A stretch of DNA of 33,048 bases from the NCBI GenBank assembly GCA_031082125.1, contig JAVHLM010000049.1, positions 1-33,048 on the forward strand, read 5' to 3'. Shown here piece after piece: positions 7,777-26,563 of the stretch. The notes below the pieces were generated by a model. The model saw only the letters and a program-made list of their open reading frames with translations, was not told the DNA's origin and made no database searches. This stretch comes from Candidatus Eremiobacterota bacterium (GTDB taxonomy: Bacteria; Vulcanimicrobiota; CADAWZ01; Ess09-12). Made by a program: the position numbers and the translations under genes. Position 1 is the stretch's first letter, and every line of letters begins with the position of its first letter.

Positions 7777-8547
7777 TCAATGGGAATGCACCTTGGCATC
7801 CGGTTCATCGACCCAGTATCCCTGGCGATTATAATGCCGATGCAGCCTGGTCTCATAATCCCTCGTGGGCAGAGATTCCTCCGTGTATTCCGGTGACTGC
7901 CTGATAGTTTCGCGGGGAAGATTGATGAAGACTGCCGACTTGCTCCAGCTGATGCGCTCGATCCATTGCGGTGAGACCAGGACCTTTTTCCCCGGCCACC
8001 AGTCCTGTGTGGCGATCAGAAGATAACGAATCGCCCACGCCTCGTCATCGATGATAAAATCTTCGACGTGGCCAATCTCGCCGTCTGTAGCCTGAATATG
8101 ATGGCCGCTCACATCATGAGTGCTGCGCAGATGGGGATCCCACATTTCCTTAGCCTGCATGGATTCTTTCCATTGTTTACTGTCACGCACAATATAGGGA
8201 TATGTTCCCCACATGTAAGGGCCGCCAAAATACACCGGCCACCCATAATACCCGTAGTAGCTCTCTTCGAATTGTCGCGAGACGGGCTTGTCACTGTCCA
8301 GAGGCGGACTGTCCTCAATCTGCTTTTTAGTCAAATCGATGCCGATGTGGTGCTCTTCTTTAATCACGGAGAGCAGCGCATACGGGGAGATCAGCACCTG
8401 CCTGCCTGTAAGCCAGTTTCCTGTGTCGGCGATCAGATAACGAATCGCCCAGTACTGGTCATCGAAGTAGAATTCTTTGACCTTCCCTATTTCGCCATCG
8501 AGGCCGTCCAGCTTGTAACCCTTGAGTGTCTTGGCTTTGATAAGCAT
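7777..8547 (-). CDS. Two-domain PRC-barrel protein 1
   Basis: This 256-residue protein has two PRC-barrel domains. The first is at about residues 1-75 (GYKLDGLDGEIGKVKEFYFD, AIRYLIADTGNWLTGRQVL). The second is at about 140-215 (DGEIGHVEDFIIDDEAWAIR, WWPGKKVLVSPQWIER). A Tyr/Trp/Gly-rich linker lies between them (YYGYYGWPVYFGGPYMWG). The C-terminus ends in RQGYWVDEP. PRC barrels are small beta barrels found in photosynthetic reaction-centre H subunits, RimM and many stress-related proteins, where they bind proteins or RNA. There is no signal peptide. It is one of three close paralogues in the window; the one at 22616 is most similar. Its leader of about 136 nt starts at a regulon promoter (8690-8732) and contains a 14-codon ORF. 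The biochemical role is unknown. Confidence 0.88.
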   Translation of the reverse strand: MLIKAKTLKGYKLDGLDGEIGKVKEFYFDDQYWAIRYLIADTGNWLTGRQVLISPYALLSVIKEEHHIGIDLTKKQIEDSPPLDSDKPVSRQFEESYYGYYGWPVYFGGPYMWGTYPYIVRDSKQWKESMQAKEMWDPHLRSTHDVSGHHIQATDGEIGHVEDFIIDDEAWAIRYLLIATQDWWPGKKVLVSPQWIERISWSKSAVFINLPRETIRQSPEYTEESLPTRDYETRLHRHYNRQGYWVDEPDAKVHSH

Positions 8548-8689: not shown

Positions 8690-8732
8690 ATTATATCTTT
8701 TCATTTCACAGATTTATATGAGAAATAGTCTA
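8690..8732 (-). promoter_or_regulatory. Regulon promoter P2 (PRC-barrel gene 1)
   Basis: Read leftward: TAGAC, then 9 bp (TATTTCTCA), then TATAAA, then 17 bp, then TATAAT at 8695-8690. The predicted transcript starts near 8683. It is divergent from promoter P1. Confidence 0.8.
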
Positions 8733-8825: not shown

Positions 8826-8868
8826 TAGACTTATTCCCATATGAACAAGGATAATAAAAAGGTATAAT
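8826..8868 (+). promoter_or_regulatory. Regulon promoter P1 (csbD)
   Basis: TAGAC (8826-8830), 9 bp (TTATTCCCA), TATGAA (8840-8845), 17 bp, TATAAT (8863-8868). This is the only rightward copy of the composite promoter. Predicted start is near 8875, about 100 nt before csbD. Confidence 0.82.
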
Positions 8869-8974
8869 CAAGACAGGAAGTATAGAATGTTGGAAGCCAT
8901 GAAGGCTTAAGACGCTGAGCTCACCGGGCGACTCACAAAGACGAGCAGCGCAAAGAAAGGGAAGGAGGAATACC

Positions 8975-9154
8975 ATGAAATCAAGCACAAAGGACAATGT
9001 AGAAGGAACTTATCACGAACTGAAGGGCAAGGTCAAAGAGGCCGCCGGAAGGATCACCGATAATCACAAGTTGGAAGCCGAAGGTGCTGGCGAAGAGCTG
9101 GCCGGCAAAGTTCAGAAAAAGATCGGTGAGGTCAAAAAGGTCCTGGGCAAGTAA
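8975..9154 (+). CDS. csbD: CsbD-family stress protein
   Basis: This is a 59-residue CsbD-like protein. It contains YHELKGKVKEAAGRIT and EELAGKVQKKIGEVKKVLGK, the two Lys/Glu-rich halves typical of the family, and it is very hydrophilic. CsbD was first described as a sigma-B-controlled general stress protein in Bacillus, and its relatives are widespread bacterial stress proteins of unknown biochemistry. GAAGGAGGAA lies 4-5 bases before the ATG. It is the first gene after promoter P1 and is followed 19 bp later by a mini membrane protein, so the two form a short stress operon. Confidence 0.92.
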   Translation: MKSSTKDNVEGTYHELKGKVKEAAGRITDNHKLEAEGAGEELAGKVQKKIGEVKKVLGK

Positions 9155-20424: not shown

Positions 20425-20922
20425 TTAAGGGTTCTTGACTGAATCTACAGGGTAAGTGCCCTCAAGTTTAGCTTTTGCTATCTTTGTAGTGCCCGGTGTT
20501 TTCAAAACGATCTCTGCCTGAAGGGTAAATTCGTTTGACAGGACATCGATATTCTTGGAGTCGCCGGGGGTGCGATCCCGCGACACTGTCTCTCCCGGCT
20601 TTATCACATCGATGTTTGACCATTTCTGCAGCTCGTCCCAGGCGCCCGTTTTCGCATTTTTGACGCGAAGATAGATCACAAGGTTATCCTTCATTTTGGT
20701 TGCCGCCACGGTCCCGGTGTTCTTGACTCTGACTCTGAAATTGATATCCTTTCCTGTTGCATTCTTTCTGATCACGATATCCTGCAGCTCAAGCACGCCC
20801 CCTTTTGCCGCCGCCGATAAGAGCGCCCCGCTGTTATCCTGTGCAGCGGAAACCGTCTTTGTCGCCTGGAAGGCTACCGCGAGAATCAGGATAGCTAATG
20901 CGATAAGTAACACTTTTTTCAC
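20425..20922 (-). CDS. Secreted immunoglobulin-like (DUF4352/FxLYD-type) protein
   Basis: This 165-residue exported protein starts at GTG 20922 with AAGGAGG 9 bases upstream. The signal peptide (KKVLLIALAILILAVAFQA) closely resembles that of the two-repeat protein at 21295. The mature part is beta-rich: LELQDIVIRKNATGKDINF, RVRVKNTGTVAATKMKDN and VIKPGETVSRD. It looks like the small Ig-like domains found in many lipoproteins and periplasmic proteins that compare tissue or ion binding, but I assign no function. It is preceded by promoter P4 and followed by the M48 protease gene. Confidence 0.75.
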   Translation of the reverse strand: MKKVLLIALAILILAVAFQATKTVSAAQDNSGALLSAAAKGGVLELQDIVIRKNATGKDINFRVRVKNTGTVAATKMKDNLVIYLRVKNAKTGAWDELQKWSNIDVIKPGETVSRDRTPGDSKNIDVLSNEFTLQAEIVLKTPGTTKIAKAKLEGTYPVDSVKNP

Positions 20923-21116: not shown

Positions 21117-21160
21117 ATAATACCAAATCAACCTCCCGATTCTCTATAAGAAAAAGTCTA
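21117..21160 (-). promoter_or_regulatory. Regulon promoter P4 (secreted protein and M48 protease)
   Basis: Read leftward: TAGAC (21160-21156), TTTTTCTTA, then TAGAGA and an 18-bp spacer to TATTAT (21122-21117). This copy is one base longer than the other six and has a weaker -10. The 190-nt leader carries AGGAGGT at 20997-20991 without a start codon. I see no gene in 20923-21294. Confidence 0.72.
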
Positions 21161-21294: not shown

Positions 21295-22323
21295 CTATCG
21301 GCTCGATTGCTGATCACGCTTCTGTCCCCACCAGTCGCCATTCTGATAGCGGTTTGGCACGGTCATCTCCGTGGTAGTAGTTCCTGAGTCGATATTTCTC
21401 ATTGTCTGATTGAAAGAAGACCCGTCGGGGGCAACTTTCTTGGTGCCCATTCTCAAGCCGTTGTCAGTAATCCTTGCTTGAAACTGCGTGTTATAATCTC
21501 CGGTCTTCACTGACATGGTGAGATTCGATCCGTTCAGCCTGCCTGTCAGCCTTGACCTGACGACACTGCCCGCGTCATTGCGGTACCGGGTATGGCCGGT
21601 AAGCAAAGAGCCGTTCTGGTTGAGGAACCAGATCTCCCTGTTCACGCCGCCATTGTCATAAAAGAGCAGTATGTCCCAGGCTCCCGTGAGATCCAGGTCC
21701 TTATTGTAACTGTATGACTGCGGGTAATTCTCATAAGACTGAGACGCCTGAAAATTCGTCTGATAATTTGTTGGATACTGATACTGCGTTGAATTCGACT
21801 GATACTCATAAGGCTCGTCCATGGTTGCGGGATTCGTCTGCTTCTGACCCCACCACTGGCCATTCATATTGAGCCAGCGATCCTGCCTGTCACTATATTT
21901 GTAGGAACGATCTGCGTTGATATTTATCAGGGTCTGCTTGAAAGAAGTCCCGTTGGGGGAAGTGCTCTCGGTGCCCATCGTGGCGCCATTGTCTCCGATC
22001 CGGGCCTTGAACTCGGTGACGTAATCCTGTCCTGTTTTAATAGTCATGGTAAGGTATGATCCGTTTATAAGCCCTGTCATTCTGTTCCTTATAAAATCAC
22101 CCCGGTCCGTGAGGTACCGGCTGTGGCCGGTAATCGTGTTGCCTTCCTGGGTGAGGTACCAGATCTCCCTGTCCACTCCGCCGTCATTGTAAAAGAGAAG
22201 AATGTCCCAGGCCCCCGAGAGATTCATCGTTGCGGCGGCAGCAGGCGCTATCTTTGCCACCTGAAAGGCCGAAGCGAGAATCAGAATTGCGAATGCGATA
22301 ATTATCAGCTTTTTCATATTCAT
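21295..22323 (-). CDS. Secreted protein with two lipocalin-sized repeats (unrecognised family)
   Basis: The product is about 342 residues. A signal peptide (LIIIAFAILILASAFQV) is followed by two homologous domains of about 100 residues. Each begins (L)(S/T)GAWDILLFY, contains GGV(D/N)REIW and TGH(S/T)RY, continues with G...NGS.LTM..KTG and ends SF(K/N)QT. Each is followed by a WWGQK segment. A Gln/Tyr/Asn/Ser-rich low-complexity linker of about 40 residues separates them (QSNSTQYQYPTNYQTNFQ). Each repeat reads as a small beta barrel of the kind with alternating strands and Gly turns. ATG 22323 has AAAAGGAG about 10 bases upstream; an ATG two codons later is possible. It has its own regulon promoter (P5) with a leader of about 200 nt. 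I do not recognise the family. Confidence 0.75.
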   Translation of the reverse strand: MNMKKLIIIAFAILILASAFQVAKIAPAAAATMNLSGAWDILLFYNDGGVDREIWYLTQEGNTITGHSRYLTDRGDFIRNRMTGLINGSYLTMTIKTGQDYVTEFKARIGDNGATMGTESTSPNGTSFKQTLININADRSYKYSDRQDRWLNMNGQWWGQKQTNPATMDEPYEYQSNSTQYQYPTNYQTNFQASQSYENYPQSYSYNKDLDLTGAWDILLFYDNGGVNREIWFLNQNGSLLTGHTRYRNDAGSVVRSRLTGRLNGSNLTMSVKTGDYNTQFQARITDNGLRMGTKKVAPDGSSFNQTMRNIDSGTTTTEMTVPNRYQNGDWWGQKRDQQSSR

Positions 22324-22528
22324 TGTAATAGTACTCCTTTTCATATAGACCTTATTGCGTGCGTGAATCGAACCTCAGCCTTTGTCCTTATACCTCCTCT
22401 CTTACTTGTCTGGACTGCAGACTGATCCCTTGATTGGTTATCTTTGACATCATCTGGAAAGAGTATGATGGGCCCTCAAAAAACATTGCCGGCGCTTTGA
22501 TTGAGAGGGATGTCTGTCTCCTGCTCTT

Positions 22529-22571
22529 ATTATAGCGCTTTATTGCTGCGGTTCATATAAGAAAAAGTCCA
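22529..22571 (-). promoter_or_regulatory. Regulon promoter P5 (two-repeat secreted protein)
   Basis: Read leftward: TGGAC (22571-22567), TTTTTCTTA, TATGAA, 17 bp, TATAAT (22534-22529). The downstream leader shares long stretches with the P3 leader, including AGGAGGT at 22398-22392 with no start codon. Confidence 0.85.
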
Positions 22572-22615
22572 GTCTTTGGGGGAAGGAGCGGGGTGGCTTT
22601 TTCGATCATCGCGCT

Positions 22616-23386
22616 TCAAGGGGTATGCACCCTGGCAGCCGGTTCCTCGACCCAGTATCCCTGGCGATTGTAATATCCATGAAGCATTGTCTCATAATCT
22701 CGAGTGATCAGAGACTCCTCCGTATATTCCGGGGAGTGCTTGATGAACTCGCGGGGAAGATCGACAAATACTTTCGACTCGTTCCAACTGATGCTCTCGA
22801 TCCATCGTGGTGAAAGCAGGACTTTTTTCCCGGGCCACCAGTTCAGTGTATCGATGATGAGATAACGAATCGCCCATGTCTCGTCGTCGATGATAAAATC
22901 CTGGACATGGCCAATCTCGCCGTCTGCGGCCTGGATATGATGACCACTCACATCGTGAGTGCTGCGCAAATTGGGATCCCAGCTTTGCTCAGCCTGGTTG
23001 GATGCATTCCTTTTTTCACAGTCACGCATAATGTGGGGATAAGGTCCCCACATGTAGGGGCCGTCAAAATATGTCGGCCATTGATAATACCCATAGTAGG
23101 ACTCCTCGAATTGCCGTGAGACGGGCCTGTCACTGTTCAATGATGGACTGTCCTCAATCTGCTTCCTGGTCAAATCGATGCTGATATGTTGTTTTTCTTT
23201 ATTCACGGCGCCCAGGGCATACGGGGAGATCAACACCTGCCTGCCCGTAAGCCAGTTTCCTGTGTCGGCGACCAGATAGCGAATCGCCCAGTACTGATCA
23301 TCAAAGTAGAATTCCTTGACCTTGCCTATTTCCCCGTCGAGGCTTTCCAATTTGTAACCCTTCAGCGTTTTGGCTTTGTTGAGCAT
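22616..23386 (-). CDS. Two-domain PRC-barrel protein 2
   Basis: This 256-residue protein is the closest paralogue of PRC-barrel protein 1. It has the same order and length: first barrel GEIGKVKEFYFDDQYWAIRY, aromatic linker YYGYYQWPTYFDGPYMWGPY, second barrel DGEIGHVQDFIIDDETWAIR, C-terminus NRQGYWVEEP. Most differences between the copies are conservative or in the linker. AAAGGA lies 8 bases before ATG 23386. It is the last gene of a leftward group with the 27-residue lipoprotein (84 bp upstream), the collagen-like lipoprotein and PRC-barrel protein 3, all downstream of promoter P6. I found no copy of the composite promoter directly in front of it. Confidence 0.88.
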   Translation of the reverse strand: MLNKAKTLKGYKLESLDGEIGKVKEFYFDDQYWAIRYLVADTGNWLTGRQVLISPYALGAVNKEKQHISIDLTRKQIEDSPSLNSDRPVSRQFEESYYGYYQWPTYFDGPYMWGPYPHIMRDCEKRNASNQAEQSWDPNLRSTHDVSGHHIQAADGEIGHVQDFIIDDETWAIRYLIIDTLNWWPGKKVLLSPRWIESISWNESKVFVDLPREFIKHSPEYTEESLITRDYETMLHGYYNRQGYWVEEPAARVHTP

Positions 23387-23470
23387 ATGAGTAGTCCTTT
23401 CATCATGATGTTGATTGCCGATGTCCCAAGATGCGGCGGTGCATCCCTGTCCCAGGGATTATAGCGCCAT

Positions 23471-23554
23471 TCAACCCGAACAGACAGTGAGGACTATCGT
23501 AAAAAGAAGAAGAAGCACTCCTGTAATCTTGACCAGATGCGGCACTTTTGACAT
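23471..23554 (-). CDS. 27-residue entericidin-like lipoprotein peptide
   Basis: A frame with an excellent ribosome binding site (AAAGGAG, 5 bases before ATG 23554) encodes a basic N-terminus (SKVPHLVK), a hydrophobic stretch (GVLLLLFTIVL) and LTVCSG, then stops. LTVC is an imperfect lipobox (Val at -1). If processed, the mature product would be a lipid-modified Cys-Ser-Gly tripeptide. Entericidins are tiny lipoproteins of similar layout but somewhat longer. It lies between the collagen-like lipoprotein and PRC-barrel gene 2 in one apparent operon. A truncated remnant is the alternative. Confidence 0.6.
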   Translation of the reverse strand: MSKVPHLVKITGVLLLLFTIVLTVCSG

Positions 23555-23581
23555 TTTTATCTCCTTTGCAAGTAAGCCCTG

Positions 23582-23613
23582 CGGGGTATATCCTCCCGGG
23601 AGGATATACCCCG
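23582..23613 (-). repeat. 32-bp perfect palindrome in the lipoprotein operon
   Basis: CGGGGTATATCCTCCC is followed immediately by its exact reverse complement. It lies between the stop of the collagen-like gene (23627) and the start of the 27-residue lipoprotein. As RNA it folds into a very stable hairpin; there is no T run on either side, so it is more likely a processing or stability element than an intrinsic terminator. Confidence 0.85.
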
Positions 23614-23626
23614 ATATCACGCTCTG

Positions 23627-23926
23627 CTATTTTCCCGGTGTTCCCGGTGCTCCAGGCGCTCCGGGCGCTCCAGGCGCTCCAGGCGCTCCAGGCGCTCCGG
23701 GTGCTCCAGGCGCTCCTTTATGCGATGCTCCAGGCGCTCCTTGTGCTCCAGACGCTCCAGGTGCTCCAGGTGCTCCAGGTGCTCCTCTCTCCGATGCTCC
23801 GGGTGCTCCAGGTGCTCCAGGCGCTCCAGGCGCTCCAGGTGCTGGAGGTGATGACTGGTAGCAGCCATTCAACGTAAAAACCGCTAAAAATGCCAGAACT
23901 ATTAATAAAACCACTAATTTCTTCAT
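23627..23926 (-). CDS. Collagen-like (Gly-Ala-Pro)n lipoprotein
   Basis: This is a 99-residue lipoprotein. The signal peptide (KKLVVLLIVLAFLAVF) ends in lipobox LNGC, with Cys 22 the predicted lipidation site. From about residue 30 to the end the mature part is almost wholly Gly-X-Y triplets, mostly Gly-Ala-Pro, with three interruptions or variants (GASERG, GASGAQG, GASHKG). Such repeats can form collagen triple helices, which in bacteria need Pro-rich triplets since hydroxyproline is rare. A short lipid-anchored trimeric stalk is the natural inference. GAGGT lies 8 bases before ATG 23926. It starts 69 bp after PRC-barrel gene 3 and so belongs to the operon of promoter P6. Confidence 0.88.
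   Translation of the reverse strand: MKKLVVLLIVLAFLAVFTLNGCYQSSPPAPGAPGAPGAPGAPGASERGAPGAPGAPGASGAQGAPGASHKGAPGAPGAPGAPGAPGAPGAPGAPGTPGK
23633..23836 (-). repeat. GC-rich 9-bp-type repeat array encoding Gly-Ala-Pro triplets
   Basis: On the plus strand, GGCGCTCCA or GGTGCTCCA units recur in tandem, in phase with the codons. Uniform units are broken by a few variant triplets. Arrays like this can change length by slippage in steps of 9 bp without breaking the frame. Confidence 0.85.
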
Positions 23927-23995
23927 ATGCTCTTACCTCGTTCCTTTCAGATGAGACTTCGCGTGCACGTCAAAACAAGGTGAGACACGGGTGCT

Positions 23996-24766
23996 TTAAT
24001 GGGCAGTCACCTTGACAGGCTCCTCGACCCAGTATCCCTGGCGATTGTAATGCCCAAAAAGTTTTGTCTCATAATCCCGGGTCAGCAGAAACTCCTCTGT
24101 GTATTCCGGTGACTGCTTGACGGTATCGCGGGAAAGATTGACGAAGACTTTCTTGTCGTCCCAACCGACGCGCTCGATCCATTGCGGTGAAACCAGGACC
24201 TTTTTCAACGGCAGCCAGTTATGGGTATTGATGAGGAGATAACGAATCGCCCATGTCTCGTCGTCGATGATAAAATCCTCAACGTAGCCGATCTCGCCGT
24301 CTACGGCCTGGATGTGATAGCCTGTCACCTCGTGAGTGTTTCGCAGATGCGGATCCCATGCGGTCTCACCCTCGGTGTATTCCTTCAATTTTTCACGGTC
24401 ACGCACAATGCGGGGATAGGCTCCCCACATGTATTGGCCGCTCCAATATTTCGGCCATCCGAAATACCCGTAGTAGGACTCCTCGAATTGCCGCGAGAGT
24501 GGCTTGTCACTGGTCAATGATGGGCTGTCCTCCATCTGCTTTTTGGTCAAATCGATGGTGATGTGCTGCTTTTCTGCAATCACCGCGCCCAGTGCATAGG
24601 GGGATATCAACACCTTCCTTCCCGCAAGCCAGTCTGCGGTGTCGGCAATCAGATAGCGAATCGCCCAGTGATGGTCATCGAAGTAGAATTCTTTTATTCT
24701 CCCTATTTCTTCCCCCCCGATACAGTCCAATTTGAAACCCTTCAGTGTTTCTGCTCTGTGTAGCAT
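23996..24766 (-). CDS. Two-domain PRC-barrel protein 3
   Basis: This 256-residue paralogue is the most diverged of the three. The first barrel carries an extra Glu (GGEEIGRIKEFYFDDHHWAI) and WLAGRKVLISPYALGAV. The aromatic linker is YYGYFGWPKYWSGQYMWG. The second barrel (DGEIGYVEDFIIDDETWAIR) has WLPLKKVL where the others have WWPGKKVL. The end NRQGYWVEEP is conserved. AAAGGAG lies 8 bases before ATG 24766. It is the first gene after promoter P6, with a leader of about 45 nt, and heads the PRC-collagen-lipoprotein-PRC operon. Confidence 0.88.
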   Translation of the reverse strand: MLHRAETLKGFKLDCIGGEEIGRIKEFYFDDHHWAIRYLIADTADWLAGRKVLISPYALGAVIAEKQHITIDLTKKQMEDSPSLTSDKPLSRQFEESYYGYFGWPKYWSGQYMWGAYPRIVRDREKLKEYTEGETAWDPHLRNTHEVTGYHIQAVDGEIGYVEDFIIDDETWAIRYLLINTHNWLPLKKVLVSPQWIERVGWDDKKVFVNLSRDTVKQSPEYTEEFLLTRDYETKLFGHYNRQGYWVEEPVKVTAH

Positions 24767-24817
24767 AGTAATACTCCTTTCATTCTTTGAGAAATGGAAC
24801 AGATACCTCCTTTCCTT

Positions 24818-24860
24818 ATTATAGCCTCCTATTTTTCAGATTCATATAAGAAAAAGTCTG
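24818..24860 (-). promoter_or_regulatory. Regulon promoter P6 (PRC-barrel 3, collagen-like lipoprotein operon)
   Basis: Read leftward: CAGAC (24860-24856), TTTTTCTTA, TATGAA, 17 bp, TATAAT (24823-24818). The predicted start near 24811 falls on AGGAGGT (24811-24805), so the mRNA would begin with a Shine-Dalgarno-like stretch about 45 nt before the real start. Confidence 0.85.
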
Positions 24861-24898
24861 GAAGTATGAATCGCCAGGTATTCTGCCAGAAAATTTTA

Positions 24899-26563
24899 TC
24901 AGTCTTTAGAGCGAAAATGCCTGAGGGAAGACAAAATGAGAGATAAAATAAGAGACAATGCAATAGAATCGATAACCTGGGGTGCTTTCATTGAATACAG
25001 GATATCGTCAATTTTGGATAAACCTTTAATCCACAGGGGTTGATACTGGTCTATCACTTCAACCCTGTCGTCAATCGCTTTCGCCGCTCTTCTGCCGCTT
25101 TCCACGGCGCCTTCAATACTCCATACCTGAGCTTGAGTCCTGGTGTGGGCTCCGGCGAGAAACAGATTTGAAACCGGCGTTTTCTGGGCGGGTAAATATG
25201 CCTGGGTATCGGTGGAATTCACCCATTTCGGTTGAAGAGGTCTTATTCCTTCACTGGAAAATTTCCACTCATGCCACACTTCTATTTTGATAATTGAAAA
25301 TTCTCTCAACCCTTTTCCATTATTCGCTTCCTTCACTAATTCATCAAGCGCGCCGCAGCTGAAAATCTGGGCTTTCACTTCTTCGATGAATTCTTCTTTC
25401 GTGCACCTGCTTACCGGCTTATGGTAAATCTTTCCCGGAACGCTGCCAATACAGGAGGTGCCTGTCCAGAGAGATTTAATGTTTTTCCCTAAATCCACTT
25501 CTTTGTCCCACACCTGTTCTTCGGCAAAAAGGGTCAGATTGAATTCGGAATCACTCACCACTACGGCAGTCCTCTCACGAGGGAACTTAATTTCTTCGGA
25601 AAATGCCACTCTGAAAGAGACTTGAGTGTGAGGGCCACCCCGAATAAGGGGCTTGAACAGCTTTAATTCTTCCAGCCTCTCAAGCGCAGGGGTCTCACTT
25701 AAAATATCTGCCGTCATGAAAGGATTGAGAGCGAGAATATACCTGTCGGCCTGAATTTTTTCTTCTCCACAGAAAGCGGAGACAATGGCGGTTCCATCAA
25801 ACTCCAGTTTTGTGAGAGCTTTCCTCCAGAAGAATTTTACGCCTTTTTCCTTAAGGTATTTCACCCATGGGTCAAACCAGTATTCACTGCTGGGGCCTTT
25901 AAGTAACAGCCAGCCATCTCCGGCGCCCTGCTTCCACGCGGGGCCATCCTGATCAGCCTTGTGGCGGTGTGCAGGCTTTGTGATCAGCTGTTTTCTGAAA
26001 AATTCACCGGCAGTCTGCAGTGAGACTTTTGACCAATCCGAGCCAATCCACGGGCCGAAACAAGAACGCCAGGCTTTATAGGCTTTATCTTTCAGTAAAG
26101 GCTCCCAGGCTTCGGCGGCATTAAGCTTATCATATTCTATTTTACTTCGATTATTGGAAGTCCACGTTTTAAGCATCAGGTAAGACCATTTCATGAATTC
26201 CCACGTGTTCATCCTGAACATTTTAGGAATGCCTTTCAGTCCTTCATTATAAAACTCAGCTTTATCGGCATCGGGGAAAATTCCAAAATCAACGGGCCGT
26301 GAGAGGGCTGAATCATAGATGCTCCCTTTTTCATTAAAAGGAATATGCCGCATTAAATCAAAAGCATTATGATACCAAGGTCCCATGCCGTGCCAGGAAT
26401 ACTCCGAAGGCATATTGTCCTGACTGAGCCGGGAGCTTCTGAAGAATCCGCCCGGCTGATCGGTGGCTTCATACACTGAAACACCATATCCTGAGTGAAC
26501 TAATTCATGGGCAGCGGTCAATCCCGCTATACCGGCTCCAAAAATCACTACTTGACAAGACAT
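24899..26563 (-). CDS. FAD-dependent amine oxidase/phytoene desaturase-like oxidoreductase
   Basis: This flavoprotein is about 554 residues. The N-terminus has the dinucleotide-binding motif VVIFGAGIAGLTAAHEL, then an acidic ribose contact and GG motif (YEATDQPGGFFRS). The C-terminal FAD-binding block is NLFLAGAHTRTQAQVWSIEGAVESGRRAAKAI. The middle (WHGMGPWYHNAFDLM, DGWLLLKGPSSEYWFDPW) fits the amine oxidase/carotenoid desaturase superfamily, but I cannot name the substrate. A hydrophobic patch near the end (IDSIALSLILSLILSSL) could associate with membrane, as in hydrophobic-substrate enzymes. ATG 26563 has GGAGGTG 5 bases upstream; a GTG two codons earlier lies inside that site. It follows the hydrolase gene by about 60 bp. 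There are fewer GC-ending codons here than in neighbours, a hint of transfer. Confidence 0.85.
   Translation of the reverse strand: MSCQVVIFGAGIAGLTAAHELVHSGYGVSVYEATDQPGGFFRSSRLSQDNMPSEYSWHGMGPWYHNAFDLMRHIPFNEKGSIYDSALSRPVDFGIFPDADKAEFYNEGLKGIPKMFRMNTWEFMKWSYLMLKTWTSNNRSKIEYDKLNAAEAWEPLLKDKAYKAWRSCFGPWIGSDWSKVSLQTAGEFFRKQLITKPAHRHKADQDGPAWKQGAGDGWLLLKGPSSEYWFDPWVKYLKEKGVKFFWRKALTKLEFDGTAIVSAFCGEEKIQADRYILALNPFMTADILSETPALERLEELKLFKPLIRGGPHTQVSFRVAFSEEIKFPRERTAVVVSDSEFNLTLFAEEQVWDKEVDLGKNIKSLWTGTSCIGSVPGKIYHKPVSRCTKEEFIEEVKAQIFSCGALDELVKEANNGKGLREFSIIKIEVWHEWKFSSEGIRPLQPKWVNSTDTQAYLPAQKTPVSNLFLAGAHTRTQAQVWSIEGAVESGRRAAKAIDDRVEVIDQYQPLWIKGLSKIDDILYSMKAPQVIDSIALSLILSLILSSLRHFRSKD

Follow-up and report, generated by a model that had tools for sequence, protein, structure and literature searches.

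The window, that is, the whole 33,048-nucleotide stretch of Eremiobacterota DNA that was analysed, contains a set of four genes on the minus strand in which two paralogous genes for double PRC-barrel proteins enclose a collagen-like gene and a very short open reading frame. In the order PRC-A, collagen-like gene, mini-gene, and PRC-B the genes are separated by gaps of 69, 72, and 84 nt. Coordinates, strand, and short gaps given for this arrangement in a preliminary description hold, and so does its assignment of a single regulon promoter ahead of the four genes, represented by one motif at positions 24818–24858. The features of this locus and related ones elsewhere in the window are the following.

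24818–24858, minus strand: regulon promoter element GACTTTTTCTTATATGAA-N17-TATAAT ahead of PRC-A; exact match, PWM score 51.9
23996–24766, minus strand: PRC-A, double PRC-barrel protein of 256 amino acids (Pfam PF05239, twice); homologues in many phyla, at most 73% identical
23627–23926, minus strand: collagen-like gene, 99 amino acids (PF01391); signal peptide, LNGC lipobox, 21 GXY triplets
23582–23613, no strand assigned: perfect 14-bp inverted repeat with a 4-nt loop, the strongest inverted repeat in the window
23471–23554, minus strand: mini-gene, probably encoding a 27-amino-acid hydrophobic peptide; AAAGGAG ribosome site, assessed by simulation
22616–23386, minus strand: PRC-B, double PRC-barrel protein of 256 amino acids (PF05239, twice); genes of other phyla up to about 79% identical
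22529–22569, minus strand: next copy of the regulon element, exact match, ahead of a secreted protein gene (21295–22344)
8828–9154, plus strand: divergent regulon element (element match) and CsbD gene (8975–9154; PF05532, E 2.2e-17)
8690–8730: regulon element of PRC-C, found by genome pattern search
7777–8547, minus strand: PRC-C, third paralogue (PF05239) with its own regulon element

PRC-A and PRC-B each match PF05239 twice (E 8.6e-12 and 9.1e-13), and together with PRC-C, which the preliminary description did not mention, they reach 48.5, 45.3, and 43.9 bits as compared with the curated cut-off of 21.2. The AlphaFold2 model of PRC-B has the PRC-barrel fold with two barrels (pLDDT 78, pTM 0.78) and matches the solved structures 3htr and 8qzo. 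Both PRC stretches lie within about 256 amino acids, and 41 columns are invariant among 38 aligned sequences, AvaK not being one of them. As described in the literature, stress proteins of the AvaK type have a pair of barrels in some 256 amino acids and a linker with many conserved aromatic residues. PRC-A and PRC-B are 68% identical at a dS of 0.45. This value is no lower than those obtained with genes of other phyla (0.42–0.55), and a recent local tandem duplication was thus rejected as the origin of the pair. In a careful tree PRC-A falls outside a supported clade of 14 rows which holds PRC-B and PRC-C, but a single clade of all three was not rejected when an AU test was applied to a quick tree (p 0.945). 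The copies may have arrived separately or may go back to one old acquisition followed by duplication.

Scanning genome contigs revealed 253 relatives of the PRC genes, the best 80 being 65–78% identical, in over a dozen phyla besides that of the host: Armatimonadota, Myxococcota, Thermodesulfobacteriota, Verrucomicrobiota, Lentisphaerota, Bacteroidota, Chlorobiota, Ignavibacteriota, Bacillota, Pseudomonadota, Cyanobacteriota, Fibrobacterota, and others. The sources include isolates. All of the 148 other genomes searched in the phylum of the host lack the gene. Synonymous sites are unsaturated between the PRC genes of this genome and several of those from other phyla (dS 0.42–0.55), nucleotide identity to other-phyla genes reaches about 85%, and the PRC genes of two metagenome-assembled genomes (MAGs) assigned to Armatimonadota and Aminicenantes are separated by a dS of 0.29. 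Non-coding DNA upstream of PRC genes can be aligned between phyla over up to 250 nt, and the leader of PRC-C has about 35 nt in common with other phyla. Copies are also located on plasmids, of which one that was inspected is conjugative and one carries two copies in tandem. Low dS, alignable upstream DNA, and plasmid copies make recent transfer of PRC genes between phyla likely, and recent enough for the spread to be tracked at synonymous sites. Misbinned MAG contigs could inflate the apparent transfer; the same spread is found in isolate genomes and complete plasmids, at greater distance. Among PRC genes of MAGs that are assigned to different phyla (L026, L027, L029, L030, L046, and L049), the pairs measured show 87–88% nucleotide identity and have alignable upstream DNA, which may reflect either very recent inter-phylum transfer or misbinned contigs. 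Phages were considered as the vehicle and dismissed because no match was detected in phages or viral contigs.

With up to three mismatches allowed, the 41-nt element GACTTTTTCTTATATGAA-N17-TATAAT occurs at 16 sites in the 7.43-Mb genome as compared with none for a reversed-pattern control, and it is a real regulon mark. Apart from the copies near the four-gene set, it precedes PRC-C, a gene for an Fe/Mn superoxide dismutase, the CsbD gene (divergent site at 8828), a YggT gene with an ankyrin gene, a Transgly_assoc-like/lmo0937 pair, two genes for P-type ATPases (one behind a baeRF gene), and genes for a sulfatase-modifying-factor-like protein, an ankyrin lipoprotein, and several secreted proteins. 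Family names, the company within the regulon, and the relatives of its members suggest that the regulon is induced by stress. The element also recurs on long contigs of the assembly to which the 33-kb contig belongs, a tie that speaks against misbinning. It was found in none of 21 genomes with PRC homologues, and 147 other genomes of the phylum yielded one weak match; its absence beside PRC homologues elsewhere indicates that the element was not transferred along with the PRC gene. Taken together, the PRC genes and the element would exemplify how stress genes of foreign origin become connected to a native regulator, and the 16 promoters of the regulon which the element marks are a handle toward finding that regulator.

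Variants of the element in which TATAGAAA replaces TATATGAA are present at several further places in the genome. One variant (GACTTTTTCTTATAGAAAACCGG...) precedes a gene for a response-regulator/histidine-kinase hybrid (L105:1141–2253, on contig C20 of this genome, G000), and this variant is also found at 21141–21158 of the window and on contigs C46 and C8. Behind the element itself, a gene for a STAS anti-sigma-antagonist (TIGR00377) is located at L105:4434–4817 (G000:C20), hinting at control of the regulon by partner switching. The regulon protein encoded at 21295–22344 is a secreted protein of 349 amino acids with two similar halves (DILLFY..GG.REIW) and has no match in Pfam or NCBIfam. Two secreted paralogues of no known family (LELQDIVIRK...FRVRVKNTG) are encoded near regulon elements at 20425–20922 of the window and at L105:7846–8430.

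The collagen-like protein exceeds the cut-off of the Pfam family PF01391 (Collagen; 41.2 versus 27.2 bits, E 1.4e-10). Its signal peptide, MKKLVVLLIVLAFLAVFTLNGC, ends in an LNGC lipobox that fits the relaxed pattern and fails the strict PROSITE-type one. The GXY triplets form runs of five, seven, and nine which are broken by GASER and GASHK, and there is no globular domain for display. On the DNA level the gene is a tandem array with periods of 9 and 69 bp whose opposite strand also reads Gly-Ala-Pro; the coding strand was chosen because signal peptide and ribosome site are found there. Elsewhere in the genome a second collagen-like gene (L106:4758–5207, G000:C46) encodes a membrane-anchored protein with GPAGASGPAGES-type repeats and has no element directly ahead of it.

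The mini-gene is present in a single copy in the genome, and its peptide reads MSKVPHLVKITGVLLLLFTIVLTVCSG. In gaps of the same length, Markov simulations based on the dinucleotides of the gap generated a Shine-Dalgarno sequence combined with such a hydrophobic open reading frame twice in 20,000 runs, and simulations built from the whole window did so in none of 20,000. Given this probability of about 1e-4, the mini-gene is probably a gene. The proposal that its product is a lipoprotein did not stand, as LTVC, with valine at position −1, fails both the relaxed and the strict lipobox pattern. Cleavage at this site would leave only C-S-G, and a single-pass membrane peptide is probably the better description.

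Copies of the regulon element flank the four-gene set, one ahead of PRC-A and the other 46 nt past PRC-B, and a PWM scan detected none that belongs to PRC-B. This distribution fits one transcription unit. No classic intrinsic terminator was found after any of the genes (minus strand, 22300–25100). Judged by the promoter element, co-expression of the four genes within the stress regulon is well supported. A shared transcript is uncertain because of the hairpin between the collagen-like gene and the mini-gene, a structure on which the preliminary description was silent. With a z-score of −3.45 for its region, this perfect repeat could split the operon into two units, of which one, served by the promoter at 24818–24858, would comprise PRC-A and the collagen-like gene and end at the hairpin, while the mini-gene and PRC-B would be transcribed from a start in the gap. 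The TATAAT at about position 23457 (minus strand) in the gap between the mini-gene and PRC-B speaks for such a division and could mark a start which serves PRC-B alone. Against it, no T run adjoins the hairpin on either strand, so the hairpin is not a standard terminator; PRC-B lacks a regulon element, and a scan revealed no sigma-70-type site in the gap. We regard two separate units as rather unlikely and favour, with some confidence, a single stress-induced transcription unit that belongs to a lineage-specific regulon. Processing, message stabilisation, or partial termination are possible roles of the hairpin. A dispersed repeat was rejected as its nature, the sequence being found once in the genome.

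What the four products might do together was judged from their neighbourhoods in other genomes, for which up to 6 kb of flanking DNA (less at contig ends) was surveyed at 78 loci with PRC homologues. A collagen-like open reading frame, defined by a run of at least five GXY triplets, was found at none of them, the sole exception being a chance match in a long shadow reading frame. The conservation of gene order on which the preliminary description had made its proposal depend was thus absent for the four-gene set, though not for paired PRC genes, since two PRC copies in one stretch occur at 4 loci. The neighbours met frequently, named by sequence inspection rather than by family search, are phosphoketolase (19 loci), a HAD protein, aldolase, acetate kinase, and DUF1269-like, BON, and CsbD proteins. 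Across phyla and plasmids, PRC proteins are widely encountered without a collagen-like lipoprotein, and the literature collection searched contained no publication that treats PRC-barrel and collagen-like proteins together. A dedicated envelope device, in which a lipid-anchored collagen trimer forms a stalk and the PRC proteins serve as its cytoplasmic partners, is therefore very improbable. Co-localisation and co-regulation of the genes and the combination of a collagen-like repeat with an LNGC lipobox are in line with it; however, the gene order is absent from the 78 loci, PRC genes are widespread without the lipoprotein, the 99-residue collagen-like protein has a short, interrupted repeat part and no head domain, and nothing except the 27-residue peptide would link the two sides of the membrane. 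Beyond proximity, the stalk with PRC partners that had been suggested found no support. The collagen-like gene and the mini-gene may instead lie between the PRC genes by chance, the Gly-Ala-Pro repeat being the disordered product of a 9-bp minisatellite and the joint function being expression only. The tandem periods of 9 and 69 bp, the reading of Gly-Ala-Pro from both strands, and the occurrence of a different collagen-like gene elsewhere without an element directly ahead are compatible with this possibility, whereas the presence of a signal peptide, a ribosome site, and a lipobox suggests that a secreted protein is being maintained, and the interruptions by GASER and GASHK are regular. We consider a chance assembly unlikely, though less so than two transcription units; it overlaps with the single-unit explanation, and our confidence in the one does not exclude the other.

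The four-gene set is real and co-regulated; its components are of familiar types, and their arrangement was encountered in this genome only. It looks like a grouping of ordinary stress parts rather than a new machine, and its significance may lie chiefly in the regulon element and in the mobility of the PRC gene. Returning to the single transcription unit, we propose that a regulator, either an alternative sigma factor or an activator binding at the −35 region, operates through GACTTTTTCTTATATGAA-N17-TATAAT to switch on some 16 promoters. A change of TTATATGAA within the element is predicted to abolish activity. PRC-A and PRC-B would be horizontally acquired, cytosolic double-barrel stress proteins of the AvaK type. 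A short foreign leader may have arrived with PRC-C at least, the remaining upstream region being native. The collagen-like gene would provide a small lipid-anchored, proline-rich Gly-Ala-Pro coat protein of the envelope, and the peptide of the mini-gene would span the membrane once. All four products would be made simultaneously, and contact between them would not be required. The most likely effect of the hairpin is to stabilise the upstream message or to terminate part of it, which would result in different doses for the two halves. More tentatively, and with a little less than even confidence, we suggest that a recently mobile double PRC-barrel stress gene, which passed between bacterial phyla at little synonymous divergence and with some of its upstream DNA, was acquired in three copies by one large-genome lineage, that this upstream DNA was replaced there by a hitherto undescribed promoter class defining a general-stress and envelope regulon, and that the regulon recruited a new collagen-like lipoprotein.

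Several known systems share single traits with the locus. The best fold matches of the PRC model are CdpB1/CdpB2 (8qzo, E 1.9e-9) and H subunits of the reaction centre (E from 3.8e-6); sequence identity to these proteins is only 13–25%, no transmembrane helix was seen in the sequence of the PRC protein, and its puhA match in a profile search is far below the cut-off (54 of 200 bits). SigB partner switching likewise involves a STAS protein, but the sequence of the element is presumably unlike the SigB consensus. A PRC-barrel gene also belongs to the EcfG general stress regulon of Sphingomonas (PMC6599016), whose GGAAC-N-GTT promoter differs from the element described here; none of the GACTTTTTCTTATATGAA-N17-TATAAT elements has the EcfG-type GGAAC −35 and GTT −10 motifs. 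Like the Bucl collagen-like proteins of Burkholderia (PMC4565658), the present protein has GXY repeats in which one or two kinds of triplet prevail, together with a signal or lipid anchor; it differs from bacterial collagen-like proteins in being only 99 residues long, dominated by Gly-Ala-Pro, and devoid of a non-collagen domain. Plasmid pPg_02 of Pseudanabaena galeata (L143) encodes a PRC protein that is 72% identical to PRC-B, in a row of genes for PRC-barrel protein, phosphoketolase, and polyphosphate kinase 2 (PPK2) with no collagen gene. In Nostoc, three adjacent PRC-barrel genes (Npun_F5451–F5453), one of which encodes the akinete marker AvaK, are induced together under stress, as are genes for CsbD, BON, and hemerythrin-domain proteins (PMC7660261). 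This set, compared here by its published description, has a different promoter, and no collagen-like lipoprotein is described for it. With its adjacent PRC paralogues and the company of CsbD it appears to be the closest precedent, and going by that published description the PRC genes of this genome are best viewed as mobile genes for AvaK-type stress proteins.
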